From: Methanosarcina sp.
GTDB lineage: Archaea; Halobacteriota; Methanosarcinia; Methanosarcinales; Methanosarcinaceae
Assembly: GCF_028693135.1 (NCBI RefSeq)
Contig: NZ_JAQUVZ010000040.1
Coordinates: 1 to 34,540, forward strand
Length of the DNA: 34,540 nt
Direction of reading: 5' to 3'
In this document: in pieces, positions 5,991 through 31,522 of the stretch
Numbering within the stretch: the first letter of the stretch is position 1
Layout: each line of letters begins with the position of its first letter
Translations under genes and position numbers: made by a program
The notes under the pieces: model-generated
Databases searched by the model: none
Seen by the model: only the letters and a program-made list of their open reading frames with translations
What the model was told of the DNA's origin: nothing

Positions 5991-6908
5991 ATGGAAAAAC
6001 TATCGCTGTTTCTTGGCTGTATCGTACCCAACCGCTACCCTGGAATTGAGAAAGCAACAAAACTCTGCCTGCAGAAACTTGAAGTTGATGCATCCGACCT
6101 GCCAGGAGCCTCCTGCTGCCCTGCCCCAGGAGTGTTCAAGTCTTTTGATAAAGCAACCTGGCTTGCCCTTGCCAGCCGAAACATCGTCCTCTCAGAAAAA
6201 ATGGAGAGGGATATTCTGACAGTTTGCAACGGGTGCTACGGGTCCCTGGCAGATGCTAATATAGAACTTAAAAAAGACCCTGAAATGAAAGCCCGCACAA
6301 ACACCTGCCTCAAAGAAATAGGCATGGAGTTTAAGGGAACCACAGAGGTAAGGCACATAATTGAGTTTCTGTACAAGGAATTCGGACCTGAAAAACTCAA
6401 GGGCTTCATCACAACCCCTCTTGACCTGAGAGTAGCCCTTCATTACGGATGCCACCTGATCAAGCCCTCAAAGGAGAGAAACCTTGGAGAAACGGAAGCT
6501 CCGGAATTCTTTGATGAGCTGGTTGAAGCCACTGGCGCAAAAAGTGTGGATTATACCGACAAAATGATGTGCTGCGGAGCAGGAGGAGGAGTACGTTCAG
6601 GGCACGCTGCCGAATCCCTGGAAATGCTTGAACATAAGCTTGCATGCATCCGGAATGCAAAAGTGGACTGTATTGTCAATGCATGCCCCTTCTGTCACCT
6701 TCAGTTTGATAAGGGGCAGCTTGCAGTCAATGAGAAGTTCGGAACTGACTACTCTATCCCCGTTCTCCATTACTCCCAGCTTCTAGGCCTTGCTCTCGGC
6801 TTTTCCCCGGATGAGCTGGGGATAGAACAGAATGCAGTCCAGAACATTGAATTTCTTGCAAAAATCTATGAGATCAGTGCCGGCTTAAAGTCAACTACCC
6901 AATGCTAA
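5991..6908 (+). CDS. hdrB: CoB-CoM heterodisulfide reductase subunit B (catalytic, two CCG domains)
   Basis: HdrB carries the heterodisulfide-reducing site, held by two non-cubane [4Fe-4S] clusters in CCG domains. Both motifs are complete in the 305 residues. The first is Cys10-x31-Cys42-Cys43-x35-Cys79-x2-Cys82. The second is Cys153-x40-Cys194-Cys195-x36-Cys232-x2-Cys235, and includes MMCCGAGGG. A strong AAGGAGG lies just before the ATG, within the 14-base gap after hdrC. The protein is soluble, and with HdrC it needs an HdrA partner for flavin-based chemistry, which must come from elsewhere in the genome. The length fits the family. Just after its stop begins a structured RNA-like element (6917-7225). 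Confidence 0.94.
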   Translation: MEKLSLFLGCIVPNRYPGIEKATKLCLQKLEVDASDLPGASCCPAPGVFKSFDKATWLALASRNIVLSEKMERDILTVCNGCYGSLADANIELKKDPEMKARTNTCLKEIGMEFKGTTEVRHIIEFLYKEFGPEKLKGFITTPLDLRVALHYGCHLIKPSKERNLGETEAPEFFDELVEATGAKSVDYTDKMMCCGAGGGVRSGHAAESLEMLEHKLACIRNAKVDCIVNACPFCHLQFDKGQLAVNEKFGTDYSIPVLHYSQLLGLALGFSPDELGIEQNAVQNIEFLAKIYEISAGLKSTTQC

Positions 6909-6916
6909 AGCAGTGT

Positions 6917-7225
6917 GGCTTGCAAAAGCCCTGGTTGACCAGCCTAAGTCTTAATTGACTACGTTGGAAATGTCATGATACCTACGAATGCTTCCTCAGT
7001 TTGTAGCTCTATCGTGTAGCATTAAAAGTCCTGAGAGGTAGGGGCGGTGTGCTACACCTGACAAGCATATCCAACATTGGCGAGGGGAGACGGTTTTCCA
7101 AAACCGTGTTACCTGTTATGGAAATTCGTTTCCAAAGCAGAGTGGAGAAATCCAAACGTGAAACGGAATGCCAGAAAGTTGACGGCATTCCTCCCTGCGC
7201 TAAAGAAACAGGGCTTCCTGCCTGT
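6917..7225 (+). ncRNA. Candidate structured RNA: orphan omega-RNA or solo IS200/IS605 right end
   Basis: The stretch lacks a gene but folds on paper into many perfect stems. These are 6917-6921/6926-6930 with a GCAA loop; 6931-6935/6938-6942; 6963-6968/7070-7075 enclosing 7014-7020/7051-7057; 7090-7097/7100-7107; 7120-7124/7129-7133 with a TTCG loop; 7165-7172/7184-7191; and 7193-7197/7209-7213. The last stem sits in GGCATTCCTCCCTG...CAGGGCTTCCTGCC, the layout of an IS200/IS605 right end in archaea. TnpB guide (omega) RNAs end in such right ends. No tnpB lies upstream on this strand, where hdrB is intact. The alternatives are a dead solo end or an independent small RNA. The boundaries are estimates. 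Confidence 0.5.
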
Positions 7226-7342
7226 CACATGTGAATAGCCGGAAATAAGGCAAAAAGCTTGAAAAAAAGGTTTAAGGCAAAAAAGTTAAAAAAGCGTTTT
7301 AAGCTGAGAACCAAACCTCTCCTGGCTTGACTCCAGACCTTC

Positions 7343-8518: not shown

Positions 8519-9754
8519 TCAAGTATCTTCAAAAGATGTTATCAAACATCTCTTTGGGTGTAACCCTACACCCTCCACTCCGTCTGCAAATGCTTTTGGA
8601 GTTGCTTTCCTGATGATGTTCAGAGCTCCGTTGACATCGGCGTTGATAATTATCCCAGTTGCGGATTTGAATAGACCTCGTTTGATCCTTCTGCCTACGT
8701 ATTTAGCTCTGTGTTCTACAGGTTCGTTATCCAGGAAACTACATTTTGATGTATGACTCTCTTCTTGAAGTATAACTTCTATGTTGACTTCCTGAGCTTT
8801 ATACTGGATCATTTCAATTAACCTGGCCAGGGGGAGCTGAACGAACTTCTGGTTGTTTTTTCGTCCCATATTAACGTCTTGCTTCCAGTTTTCGTTTTTG
8901 CCAATTATGATTGATTTGACATTGTTTTTGATAGCGTAATTAACGATTCCACGGCTAAGTTTGTGGAAATAATCCTTTATCATGTTATTTCGTTTGAAGT
9001 CGAGTTTTGCTAATTTACTACCCCATTTAATTTTAGCCAGATCGTATATGTGCTGAATCCTGGCTTTTTTCATGTTATAGAACTGATTAATGTTGTTTGC
9101 AGTATTACCCTTAACAACAATTGGGTTTGCACCAAAGTTGTTTGCGATAGTTGCAATATTGTAAACGCCAAGATAAATTCCTAAAACTCGGCTTGAGTTA
9201 ATTTCATTCTAAGAAACTGTTTTGTCGTACACGATTTCACACGTATCCTTATTTGCGTTTGGGATTACCCGTACTTCTCTGAGGTCCACATCAACTAATC
9301 TGGTTTTCAATTCCAGGTTTACCGCTTTTGGGAATTTGAGTATACCATTAACGATTTTACATTGCTGGTTTGTGAATACCAGGATGTGTTCCCCATCTTT
9401 ATGTTTGTATTTGGGCGGTTTAGGGCGTCCCATAAACAATTCAGGAGATTTTGCGTATACCTTTAATGCCTTGAAGAACGATTTCCAGCTTTTATCCAGT
9501 AGTTTAAGTACCTGTTGAGCAGTCTGTGCTGGCAATGCTCTGTATTGTTCTGTGTTTTTTAGCATTGAGTAAAGCTGTTTATACCAGATACCTTCACCTT
9601 TTTCACCAGTTTCCTGGTAAAGATTATCATTTTCAAAGAATCTTTGCCGTATTATGTAGTTGGCAGTATTAAACAAATTTTTGGAAGCATGAGCTAGTCC
9701 TGAGATAGTTTCTGATTTAAATTGAATTTGCTCAGTTCTAGTCACAAGTGCCAT
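8519..9754 (-). pseudogene. tnpB: IS200/IS605-family TnpB with an in-frame amber codon and a mutated RuvC Asp
   Basis: One reading frame of 412 codons starts at the ATG at 9754 (CTGGAG 10 bases upstream) and ends in TGA at 8519. It is open throughout except for one TAG at 9209-9211 (codon 182), just before the RuvC domain. The N-terminal part is the helical/wedge region (SKNLFNTANYIIRQ; YRALPAQTAQQVLKLLDKSWKSF). After the TAG, RuvC-I reads GIYLGVYN instead of GIDLGVNN, a single G-to-T change that removes the catalytic Asp. RuvC-III (INADVNGALN) keeps its Asp, and GKNENWKQ precedes it. There is no TnpA partner. Methanosarcina can insert pyrrolysine at UAG, so a full-length but nuclease-dead protein is possible. 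Plain decay after transposition is the simpler reading. Confidence 0.85.
8534..8573 (-). other. Two adjacent hairpins at the 3' end of tnpB
   Basis: Perfect 7-base stems lie at 8534-8540/8545-8551 (4-base loop) and 8556-8562/8567-8573 (4-base loop), inside the last codons of tnpB. In IS605-type elements the guide RNA overlaps the tnpB 3' end, so these may be what remains of it. No typical right-end hairpin follows before the DUF1847 gene. Confidence 0.5.
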
Positions 9755-27529: not shown

Positions 27530-28828
27530 ATGACGGAAAGTACCAAAAGTAAGGATGAAAGCATGCGCAGTCACCTTGTGAAGTCCGGATCTGTGTATGA
27601 CGGAATTGAGCCTGGAGAGCTGGGGGAGTCAACTGAAAGCGTCCAGGACCGAGTGAGGCAACTTGAAAGCCGCAACAGTTTTCTGGAAGAGCAGTGTAGC
27701 CAGATAGAGTCTGAAAAACGCTATCTAGAGAACCAAAAGATCAAATATGAGAGAGAGATACGAAAGCTGCAGTCAGAGCTCGATCGTATGAAGACCTCTC
27801 CGTTGATCATTGGTACGGTTATTGATGTGATCAAGAATGACCGTATAATCGTCCGTAGCAGTAACGGGCCTCAGTTTCTGGTTAACGTTTCGCAATATAT
27901 TGACGAGAAAAAACTGCTTCCAGGGGCAAAGGTTGCCTTGAACCAGCATACACTTGCTATTGCAGAGGTTATCCCTTCAACAGAAGAGCCTTTTGTTGCC
28001 GCAATGGAAGTTATCGAAAGTGTTGAAGTGGATTATGATCAGATAGGCGGTCTTGAGGAGCAGATTCAGGAACTTCAGGAAGCAGTCGAACTTCCGCTAA
28101 TTGATCCTGAACGCTTTGCCCGGATAGGGATTGAGCCCCCGAAAGGAGTACTACTCTACGGGCTTCCGGGAACAGGGAAAACCCTACTTGCAAAAGCCGT
28201 AGCCCATAGAACCAATGCGACATTTATCAGAGTTGTGGGCTCTGAACTTGTACAGAAATACATTGGGGACGGCTCCAAGCTGGTAAGGGAAATCTTCGAG
28301 ATGGCACGGAAAAAAGCTCCCAGTATCATCTTTATCGATGAACTGGATTCAATAGCTGCAAGGCGTTTAAACGAGACAACTGGTGCAGATAGAGAAGTTC
28401 AGAGAACTTTGATGCAACTTCTTGCAGAAATGGATGGCTTTGATAAGAGGAAGAATATTCGGATCATTGCAGCAACAAACAGACCGGATGTCCTTGACCC
28501 TGCAATTCTAAGGCCAGGCCGTTTTGACAGGCTTGTCCATGTTCCGATGCCCGGAATAGAAGCAAGAGGAAAAATCCTCGAGATCCATTGTGAAAGGATG
28601 ACTCTTGCAGAAGAAATCGACTTTAAAAAGCTCGCAAAAGCTACCGAAGGGATGAGTGGAGCAGATCTGAAGGCAATTGCCACTGAAGCAGGCATGTTCG
28701 CGGTCAGAAAAGACAAGGAAGTCATTGAAATGGGAGATTTCCTCGAAGCAGTGGCTAAAGTATCTGTGGCTGCAGATACGCAGAAAATGATGCCTAGCAG
28801 CCCACCTGAGACGACAATGTTCGTGTAA
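27530..28828 (+). CDS. Proteasome-activating nucleotidase PAN (AAA+ ATPase)
   Basis: PAN unfolds proteins and feeds them to the 20S proteasome. From the chosen ATG (GGAG four bases before) it is 432 residues. It has an N-terminal coiled coil at about 38-88 ([19 protein letters not shown]), an OB domain at about 90-150, and an AAA+ domain. The AAA+ domain has Walker [15 protein letters not shown] (about 210-223), pore loop [13 protein letters not shown], Walker [11 protein letters not shown], arginine fingers in [12 protein letters not shown], and sensor NRPD. The C-terminus is TTMFV, a Phe version of the Hb-Tyr-X gate-opening motif. An in-frame ATG at 27503 would add nine residues but is too near the TATA box. 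It is divergent from aMBF1. Confidence 0.93.
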
Positions 28829-28970
28829 AAAATCCGGGGAGTCACAAAAAAAATATTTTAAGGGAGCCCATTTTTACCGGAAAAAATTCCTGTTTCCCGT
28901 TGATTTCTGCTGGGAGTGGCGTCATGGGGAACCGGCAAACTATTTTTGTAATTCAGACGTAAAGATACCT

Positions 28971-29561
28971 GTGAGTTCAGATTTTCATATCAAACCTGAA
29001 ATCCGAATTCTGGGCATAGACGACTCTGCGCTTCTTCATGAAAGGGTAATGATAGTAGGAACTGTTTTCAGAGGAGGAGACTGGATAGACGGAATCCTGC
29101 GTTCGGATATCACCAGAGACGGCCTTGATGCTACCGAGGTGATAAGCACAATGATAAAGAATAGCAGGCATTACAGTCAGCTCAGGATTGTCATGCTTGA
29201 TGGGATCACTTACGGAGGCTTTAATGTTGTTGATATAGAGGAGCTTTACAGAGAGACAGGACTTCCTGTTATTGTGGTCATGCGTGCCTACCCGGATTTT
29301 GAAAAGATTCGAGCTGCCCTCAGGCATTTCTCCGATGGAGAGGTGCGCTGGGACATGATAAAAAAAGCAGGCAAGATAGAAAAGCTGATCACGGAAAAAA
29401 ACAGGACTCCAATTTATATCCAGAAAGCCGGGATAGGAGTAAAAAGCGCAGAAAAGATAGTTCGCCTCACTTCAATAAGAAGTAATATTCCGGAGCCTCT
29501 CAGGGTTGCCCATCTAATTGCAACAGGCATCATCTTAGGGGAATCAAGAGGAAAAGCGTGA
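28971..29561 (+). CDS. DUF99 (UPF0215) family protein
   Basis: This 196-residue archaeal protein has the family start KPEIRILGIDDSALL (residues 8-22), VGTVFRGGDWIDG, the central LRIVMLDGITYGGFNVVDIEEL, GLPVIVVMRAYPDFE and the end LRVAHLIATGIILGESRG. The DUF99 fold resembles an RNase-H/endonuclease V-like core; some databases name it a deoxyuridine endonuclease, which I have not been able to check. The conserved Asp pair in GIDDS and Asp in MLDG would be the active-site acids in that fold. It starts with GTG and a weak ribosome-binding site, 142 bases after PAN. An IS605-like hairpin starts five bases after the stop. Confidence 0.85.
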   Translation: MSSDFHIKPEIRILGIDDSALLHERVMIVGTVFRGGDWIDGILRSDITRDGLDATEVISTMIKNSRHYSQLRIVMLDGITYGGFNVVDIEELYRETGLPVIVVMRAYPDFEKIRAALRHFSDGEVRWDMIKKAGKIEKLITEKNRTPIYIQKAGIGVKSAEKIVRLTSIRSNIPEPLRVAHLIATGIILGESRGKA

Positions 29562-29565
29562 ACTA

Positions 29566-29600
29566 CCCCTGAGCTAAAGATTCAGGGGCTTCCTGTGTGA
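29566..29600 (+). mobile_element. Solo IS200/IS605-like right-end hairpin
   Basis: CCCCTGA (29566-29572) pairs with TCAGGGG (29582-29588) around GCTAAAGAT, followed by CTTCCTG and TGACAC. The string CCCTG-N-GCTAAAGA-NN-CAGGG-(G)-CTTCCTG also occurs at 7193-7220, and similarity runs on through a TG-N-CAC. This is the pattern of an IS605-type end without a transposase gene nearby. It may also serve as the DUF99 terminator. Confidence 0.5.
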
Positions 29601-30038
29601 CACCTCTGCCTAATGGCAACAAGTAAAGCAGGCTCTAACCCACGTTCCGCAGGTGAAAATATGTACTTGAGCTTCCTGTCGGGTTCCAGAAAAGATCAGG
29701 AAAAAGGGAAAGATAAAAATACAGGAACCAGCCTCAAAAAAATATAAAAAATAAAAAAATATACATTTGATGCAAAGAAATTAAATAAGATCGGGCAAAA
29801 AAGAGAAACAGACCAGATAGTCCCGAAGAGCAAGGAATATAATATCAGACCGGGATAGAGTAACATTAATAAAATTATTAAGCACATACAGTGCAAATTC
29901 AAAAACTGGAAAAGGAAAACTATTAAATTGGAAACTGTATATGTGATGGTTAAAATAATTTGTTTCTTGTTGTAATATACCTGTTTCTAATACAATCCGT
30001 TAAATGATCATCCCAGCAGAATGGAGGAAAACAGTAGT
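29601..30038. other. Intergenic region upstream of ftsZ
   Basis: The first 90 bases are less AT-rich than the rest, with a small TGCC-TAAT-GGCA hairpin (29607-29618), and may belong to the solo element. From about 29690 the sequence becomes very AT-rich; TATA-like TGTATATG near 29936 and TAATATAC near 29975 are candidate ftsZ promoters. A GGAGG site lies at 30023-30027. Confidence 0.45.
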
Positions 30039-31163
30039 ATGAGATCCATTGTTGAAGAAGCCCTTGCTCGATCTGCCCTGGAAGGACGTGCCGGGCAGGG
30101 TGAGTACTCAAATTCAGATTACTCTAATGAAAATTTAGAAGTGGATGCTGAACTTGAAGAAATACTGAGGAGCCTTAAAACAACTATCAAAGTAGTAGGT
30201 TGTGGAGGCGGCGGTTCAAACAGCATCCAGCGCATGATGGGCGAAGGTATCGAGGGAGCAGACCTTGTTGCTCTGAACACTGACGCTCAGCACCTTCTTC
30301 ATATACGCTCCGGCAAAAAAATTCTCATAGGGAGAAAGAAAACCCGAGGACTTGGAGCCGGCAGTCTCCCCCAGATAGGAGAAGATGCTGCAATCGAGAG
30401 TATTGATGAGATTAACAAGATCGTCCAGGGCTCAGATATGGTTTTTATCACCGCAGGCCTTGGAGGAGGAACAGGAACCGGATCAGCACCTGTAGTGGCT
30501 GAGGCAGCCAGAGATGCAGGAGCCCTTACGATCGCAGTCGTAACCCTCCCGTTCAGCGTGGAAGGACATGTCAGGAGGACAAACGCCGAAGCCGGCCTTG
30601 AGCGTCTGAGAGATGTTGCAGACACAGTTATCGTTGTCCCCAACGACAAGCTGATTGAAGTGGTCCCAAGGCTTCCACTTCAAGCTGCCTTTAAAGTCTC
30701 GGATGAAGTTCTTATGAGAGCAGTAAAGGGCATAACCGAACTGATAACAAAGCCCGGACTTGTCAACCTTGACTTTGCAGATATAAGAACTGTGATGCAA
30801 AACGGAGGCGTTGCTATGATAGGGCTTGGAGAGGCAGACGGCGAAAACAAAGCTGTCGAGTCGGTCCAGAAAGCTCTGCGCAGCCCGCTCCTTGACGTGG
30901 ACATATCAGGTGCGACCTCTGCTCTTGTTAACGTGGTTGGAGGCCCTGACATGACCATTTCGGAAGCCGAGTCTGTGGTCCAGGAAGTCTACAGCCGCAT
31001 AGACAACAACGCCCGCCTGATCTGGGGTGCGCAGATTGACCCAGACCTCGAACAGACAGTACGCACTATGATCGTGGTCACAGGAGTTACCTCTGCCCAG
31101 ATTTACGGTCACGGGAACGATAAGAACATTACATATAAGTATGGAATTGACTTCGTAGAGTGA
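30039..31163 (+). CDS. ftsZ: Cell division GTPase FtsZ
   Basis: FtsZ polymerises into the division ring at midcell. The 374 residues contain [16 protein letters not shown] (51-66), ALNTDAQHL, the tubulin signature GGGTGTGSA (142-150), the T7 loop NLDFADI (243-249) with catalytic Asp, and the usual C-terminal domain ending shortly after [11 protein letters not shown] long acidic N-terminus of about 48 residues precedes the fold, as in archaeal FtsZ. I chose the ATG at 30039 because GGAGG lies 11 bases before it; an ATG at 30021 contains that site itself and would add six residues. It is followed by secE and spt5, a common archaeal arrangement. Confidence 0.95.
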
Positions 31164-31522
31164 TCAAATAAGGAATGAAACAGTAAAATGGGTAAAAACG
31201 CTCGGTTGGAGAAAAAATACTGTTTTCCCCCTTTTGAAGGAAAAAGAAGGAACGTAGGAATATAAAATCCAATCGAAAACTATTTTTATGGTAAATGCAG
31301 TATGGTGCCGATACAATTCGGCATCAAAAATGAAATATATTTACTGACACGAAAAGGGTTTTACGTGAGTAATGTCATGCGTCTAAATTTTTGGATGTTC
31401 CAAAGACCGTGCCAGTGATATCTTCATATAATAGGAATTAATAATATAATCCGCTCGTCCTTCCTGAAAGATAAAATCCGATATTCTGCGATATAAAAAC
31501 AAATTTCGGAGATGTAACATAC
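31164..31522. other. Intergenic region between ftsZ and secE
   Basis: About 360 AT-rich bases. A hairpin TGCCGA-TACAAT-TCGGCA lies at 31306-31323, possibly the ftsZ terminator. The region otherwise holds the promoter at 31491-31500. No other gene is seen. Confidence 0.5.
31491..31500 (+). promoter_or_regulatory. TATA box of the secE-spt5 unit
   Basis: ATATAAAAAC is centred about 30 bases before the short upstream ORF at 31523 and predicts a start near 31520. That transcript would carry the short ORF ahead of secE. Confidence 0.45.

Follow-up and report, generated by a model that had tools for sequence, protein, structure and literature searches.

A hairpin behind the DUF99 gene of a Methanosarcina sp. 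contig (NZ_JAQUVZ010000040.1, analysed over its 34,540 nucleotides, hereafter the window) very probably belongs to an ORF-less element of the IS200/IS605 type that has decayed, and marks its right-hand (TnpB-sense) terminus. The remnant occupies positions 29558-29691 on the minus strand, and its relatives, their tnpB linkage and covariation identify it as the putative 3′ part of a TnpB omegaRNA (reRNA) that extends as far as the terminus; the element no longer has its other end. The gene itself (28971-29561, plus strand; Pfam Endo_dU, PF01949, 225 bits) finishes in GCG TGA, and these two codons overlap the element boundary. Near the terminus stands the hairpin CCCTGAG-CTAAAGA-TTCAGGG (29567-29587), whose loop reads CTTTAG on the omegaRNA strand, and which is defined by 24 exact genome copies and by its fold.

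The initial annotation had noted that the hairpin core recurs within the window on one strand, and a pattern search bears this out: CCCTGNGCTAAAGANNCAGGG is present at 7193-7213 and at 29567-29587, on the plus strand both times. The 4.22-Mb, 89-contig genome holds 24 exact copies, so the core is not absent elsewhere, and none of the reversed control pattern. Among 30 genomes of the genus the core is present in 18, with a maximum of 44 copies in G010. Extension of the pattern to CTTCCTG, which had been taken as part of the shared core, leaves only the match at 29567 in the window (0 of 100 shuffles match); the 7193 copy is missed because it has one G fewer before CTTCCTG. The TG-N-CAC motif that follows does occur at both places, but the sharing looks coincidental, as relatives of the 29566 feature mostly carry TGTGTCATCC or similar, and at 7193 the motif lies beside the element terminus.

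Sorted by their flanks, the 24 copies comprise 6 left ends, in which TCAACTAC precedes the core and gcttgtctaacaagcc comes after it, 11 right ends (the 7193 copy among them), 6 solos and the DUF99 copy. Solos join a left flank of the left-end type to a right flank of the right-end type over about 48 bp in total. Full copies have the 21-base core in common between their left and right ends, in the same orientation. In G010, 32 of the 44 exact hairpin copies (L148-L191) have flanks that correspond to the right end of a single IS200-type tnpA element. A 23-base hairpin, CCCCTGAGCTAAAGACTCAGGGG, is found in at least 108 stretches that include records of Desulfobacter latus, Desulfocicer vacuolatum, Parabeggiatoa, Methanogenium and Methanolobus (L342-L421), a distribution that suggests spread between archaea and bacteria.

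The initial annotation took the feature at 29566 for another copy of the right-end hairpin seen at 7193, and this description fails. On the left it is flanked by GTGAACTAC, which marks an element boundary, and the 134 bp to the right belong to a different repeat family. When positions 29555-29720 were used as a query against the same genome, nine other places matched over 112-133 bases at 76-82% and a tenth over 101 bases at 74%. Family similarity begins at GTGAAC inside the DUF99 stop codon and stops near 29691. Longer members extend about 400 bases further, to a second hairpin and ...CCTATAAA, and at the right they end like an IS200-type tnpA element of the same genome (L127; Y1_Tnp, PF01797). 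Full copies in the genome have a subterminal hairpin at both ends and lack terminal inverted repeats, and the DUF99 copy retains one such end. The unoccupied sites of other copies reveal no target duplication and a fixed short target (ATGAA or similar), features for which the DUF99 locus is comparable at its left junction only. Since the 134-bp copy contains no transposase and Y1 domains are encoded at three places elsewhere in the genome, it is at most a derivative of an IS200/IS605 element mobilised in trans.

Evidence for the omegaRNA assignment comes from the relation to tnpB, which the initial annotation had proposed to map. In relatives, the other strand of the segment directly follows tnpB: a long ORF whose product has the C-terminus of TnpB stops just ahead of it in 8 of 26 loci (four in G006, three in G005 and one in G014), the remaining loci being ORF-less or unassigned. 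Five loci were measured, and in these 1-12 nt lie between the tnpB stop codon and the segment; all three adjacent proteins scanned carry Pfam OrfB_IS605 and Cas12f1-like_TNB and thus are TnpB. The link was drawn from relatives because our own genome yielded only a 74% match near the tnpB gene of contig C47. This match spans about 90 bases and is the nearest among the own-genome tnpB loci fetched, none of which encodes a TnpB with a closely matching omegaRNA; the segment was accordingly rejected as the end of an own-genome tnpB element.

For the structural alignment, we dropped L327 and L333 (a 38-base match only), L057 (different terminus), L062, G007 partial matches and identical copies, which left 26 distinct copies. 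Three hairpins are retained in 94.4% of the cells of this alignment, and the observed covariation score is 0.471 versus 0.221 for shuffled alignments (0 of 500 as high), with slid structures reaching at most 0.149. The count of double-change pairs is less decisive, being equalled by 39 of 500 shuffles, and the fold of the single window copy is modest (z = −2.0, 5 of 200 shuffles as good). The segment thus resembles a structured RNA located directly 3′ of tnpB and ending at the element terminus, and we assign its minus strand as the 3′ part of a TnpB omegaRNA.

All 27 orthologous DUF99 loci that were read end in GCN plus a stop codon, and none has the hairpin; one carries an unrelated CTAAAG 201 bases downstream. 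In the nearest relative, G011 (protein identity 92%), GGAAAAGC is followed by ATAACTG, and in the window GGAAAAGC is followed by GTGAACTACC, therefore the Ala-stop ending is kept. The ancestral GC|ATAAC has likely become GC|GTGAAC, and by this comparison of alleles the element landed in the DUF99 stop codon without altering the predicted protein, an instance of a stop-codon insertion that leaves the product unchanged. Downstream homology resumes only near 29700 and the native spacer is lost, therefore the left junction alone is clean. The insertion point rests on that junction because the right end and spacer are gone and DUF99 provides no clean pair of occupied and unoccupied sites. One observation runs against our explanation: the TAM/target of the nearest relatives is GTTAT, whereas intact ends predict TTTAT.

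According to the ISDra2 TnpB study (PMC8612924), the reRNA derives from the right end of the element and its guide from flanking DNA. By homology to this reRNA, the predicted guide position of the DUF99 copy would be the 20 bases from 29557 to 29538 on the minus strand, antisense to the DUF99 end. The antisense strand of the unoccupied G011 allele matches this position at 20 of 20 bases, with AGTTAT just before it, and 16 of 27 relatives show two or fewer mismatches. The G011 match is relevant to the idea that ORF-less copies might be satellites consisting of a guide RNA only. Such copies would be transcribed, load onto the TnpB or IscB of other copies and cut their own unoccupied alleles, so that decayed remnants would be retained at gene ends until they collapse to 48-bp solos. 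We regard this scheme as improbable.

The hairpin at 7193-7213, assigned by its core pattern and flanks, belongs to an element of another kind. An ORF-less IscB/HEARO element of 341 bp (6890-7230, plus strand) starts with GTCAACTACC at 6890 and is delimited by its terminal pattern in comparison with other copies, by the target GTGAA at 7231-7235 and by the G011 counterpart of the site, which is unoccupied and continuous (89%). Its first part (6890-7095, plus strand) matches the HEARO (IscB omegaRNA) structure RF02033 with 154 bits, above the gathering score of 83, and is the sole Rfam match in the window. A single right end common to both window hairpins is thereby ruled out, as it is by the 134-bp family at 29558. 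Rfam gives no match at the DUF99 segment, so the hairpin there cannot be assigned to HEARO. The 6890 element has entered an HdrB-like gene at its final codons, and the protein encoded there now has the C-terminus GLKSTTQC. Both hairpins had been placed just after a plus-strand gene, and this is accurate for 29567, where the element begins inside the stop codon; the 7193 hairpin, however, is 285 bp beyond the gene end at 6908, and it is its element that begins in the last codons of that gene. Other parts of the genome encode the IscB domain RRXRR at 13 places, and an HNH domain accompanies it in the IscB that was tested.

At the stop codon of the site of the 6890 element, G008 carries an independent remnant (GTGAACTACTCCTGGCTAAAGCATCGGAG...; L256, G008:C1:3598050-3598600). 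A TnpB C-terminal fragment of 184 amino acids (PF07282 and a weak PF01385) is encoded at 8522-9073 on the minus strand of the window, 1.3 kb from the HEARO element. The target given in the original HEARO paper is reportedly ATGA/GTGA. Targets of this form at IscB-type elements open an ORF of at least 60 codons in 16 of 45 cases compared with 400 of 2475 control sites (16.2%; p = 0.001), with each orthologous site counted on its own and intragenic sites among the controls; a preference for start codons is suggestive only. The end of IscB-type elements supplies GAGG a few bases before the target ATG.

We joined the flanks of 16 insertions in our genome (8 solos and 8 longer elements) and searched eight relatives for the joined sequences. 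A match across the joint was observed for 14 of 16 sites, with L021 among them at 70-73% identity only; L017 and L022 gave no match across the joint in these relatives. Alignments were inspected at six sites, namely the 6890 element and L016, L018, L008, L009 and L074. L018 is unoccupied in G008 and G010. Solos are present both in our genome and in G010 at L008, L009 and L074, and the corresponding unoccupied sites are seen in G008 for L008, in G001 and G011 for L009, and in G001 and G009 for L074. L016 exhibits only a solo in our genome and an unoccupied site in G011, because a split match in G010, considered as a full element, proved on alignment to be an insert with other ends, and G008 contains a mere repeat of local sequence. 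The G010 solo orthologous to L008 has a different repeat of about 93 bp inside its hairpin (L258, G010:C1:2772350-2773050).

Four sites were aligned starting from solos of relatives. L161 has a solo in our genome and in G010, is unoccupied in G001, G007, G011 and G020, and in G008 holds a remnant of ~310 bp that has the variant CTTAAGG and the flank ATATAAAA in common with the G010 solo. This series at one site favours the collapse of a longer element to a solo. At L217, the solos of G008, G011 and our genome have two different stem sequences, with G001 and G010 unoccupied; at L193, the stems of the G011 and G010 solos differ; and L200 has a solo in G011, an unoccupied site in G008 and a local repeat in our genome. 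The orthologous solos of L217 and L193 (L299, L300, L308) have stems CCCTGAG/CTCAGGG or CCGCTAAAT/ATTTAACGG around an identical loop, which may reflect either hairpin exchange or independent or repeated insertion. The solos look like collapsed elements because relatives have precise empty sites and the longer L161 remnant shares variants with a solo. An exact 37-base solo pattern matched no stretch in a wider collection of genome contigs, from which near genomes may be absent, and our literature search found no account of Methanosarcina solos.

Collapse is not the only way in which these solos, the DUF99 copy excluded, might be read. They could be minimal elements of 48 bp, capable of moving on their own when a helper TnpA is present. 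A single solo hairpin is flanked by both presumed cleavage sites, solo length is uniform (47-49 bp in four genomes), the three solos in common with G010 face unoccupied sites in other genomes, and the Haloquadratum study (PMC3119063) considers a mobile 52-bp form possible. Nevertheless, the L161 remnant and solo carry variants in common, and solos present in two species are equally expected if collapse preceded the species split; we therefore judge minimal elements to be unlikely, if by no means far-fetched. For the DUF99 copy itself, a solo right end arising by collapse between two identical hairpins is very improbable. The solo form is real elsewhere, as six other exact copies of about 48 bp are terminal-only, and the unoccupied sites of other copies are precise. 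However, to the right of the DUF99 hairpin there are 100 more bases of the omegaRNA family and not a right-end flank. The 134-bp match refutes the solo reading here; for other copies that reading holds. The original suggestion of solo ends or small non-autonomous elements scattered behind genes is thus correct in that transposase-less, non-autonomous ends are scattered, many at gene borders, and solos do exist, but the DUF99 copy is not a solo.

That such hairpins are reused behind genes as terminators or RNA-processing signals, as had also been proposed for termination, gains some appeal from their positions. Left boundaries fall within 30 nt of the stop codon of a plus-strand ORF of at least 100 codons in 13 of 58 cases, some of which represent one site in two species, compared with 5.2% of 5000 random positions, so the mapping to gene ends does reveal an excess near stop codons. 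This enrichment can nonetheless arise from the targets ATGA, GTGA and ATAA, which contain stop and start codons, and from the scarcity of boundaries inside ORFs (3 of 58 versus 34.5%). Moreover, none of the 24 copies has five or more T residues in the eight bases after the hairpin on either strand, a scan of 28000-31200 gave two terminator candidates (3.2 expected), neither of them the DUF99 hairpin, and the 27 DUF99 orthologues do without it. The missing T-run and the scan speak against an intrinsic terminator, and we consider any such function exceedingly improbable.

We favor instead a history in which Y1 transposase (TnpA), acting in trans, inserted the single-stranded element into the DUF99 stop codon at GC^ATAAC, and the stop codon was then supplied by the element (GC GTGAAC). 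Its other end and about 150 bp of native spacer would have been lost later, in that presumed order. TnpA would recognise a hairpin of this type at the element end; read on the minus strand, the hairpin would also form the final stem of the TnpB omegaRNA, with a guide derived from DUF99 directly after it if such an RNA were active. The 7193 hairpin would be of the same type because ends of this kind also serve the IscB/HEARO elements of this genome, and in its element it would close the end opposite the guide. The 48-bp solos, in turn, would be full elements that collapsed between two identical end hairpins. A puzzling hairpin behind genes thus acquires a probable life history, from full element through ORF-less element and truncated omegaRNA end to 48-bp solo, with unoccupied sites for comparison, and the natural copies form a set with which to examine whether stand-alone omegaRNAs act in trans.

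Our searches also revealed a repeat of 118 bp, ORF-less and bounded by inverted ends AGGCTGTCCGACAATT, located at L062:1384-1502 (contig C18:7416-7534) and at 21 other places in our genome. All 22 near-full copies reside at a CTAAA-like motif (two-sided TAAA), 11 in the end hairpins of IscB, TnpB or IS200 elements and 11 in a second palindromic context. Location in a hairpin loop rests on our reading of the flanks, because on a crude stem score the 22 repeat sites (1-11) could not be told apart from 234 control CTAAA[GC] sites (0-11). The list of end patterns identified no autonomous partner for this repeat.

HEARO/IscB, TnpB reRNA and IS200/IS605 ends are already known, and so, in Haloquadratum, are terminal-only 52-bp forms and small repeats in palindromes (PMC3119063). 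With ISDra2 for comparison (PMC8612924), the DUF99 copy resembles an IS200/IS605 element with TnpB in its right-end RNA, near-terminal hairpin and flank-derived guide, and differs in that tnpB and tnpA are absent, one end is lost and the target is not TTGAT. The 6890-7230 element has the HEARO RNA of HEARO/IscB systems (RF02033; PMC9755519) and the same type of end hairpin; unlike the systems described there, it has no IscB ORF, and the DUF99 copy is not HEARO. The Haloquadratum walsbyi study (PMC3119063) describes PATEs and terminal-only IS605 elements with near-terminal palindromes as 22-bp direct repeats and no target duplication, 52-bp terminal-only forms produced by repeat-mediated deletion, and non-coding segments matching element ends. 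Near-terminal palindromic direct repeats, the absence of target duplication, terminal-only forms and end-matching non-coding segments are alike here, whereas our host is Methanosarcina, the solos measure about 48 bp, IscB-type elements are included and the DUF99 copy represents an omegaRNA end of 134 bp rather than a terminal-only form. Collapse at the end hairpins thus appears to affect IscB-type elements in Methanosarcina as it does IS605 elements in Haloquadratum. The same source describes SMR-A, about 110 bp long with inverted ends and situated inside IS605-type end palindromes, and reports no duplication for it; our 118-bp repeat is similar in size, inverted ends and location within end palindromes, but seems to duplicate a few bases (TAAA).
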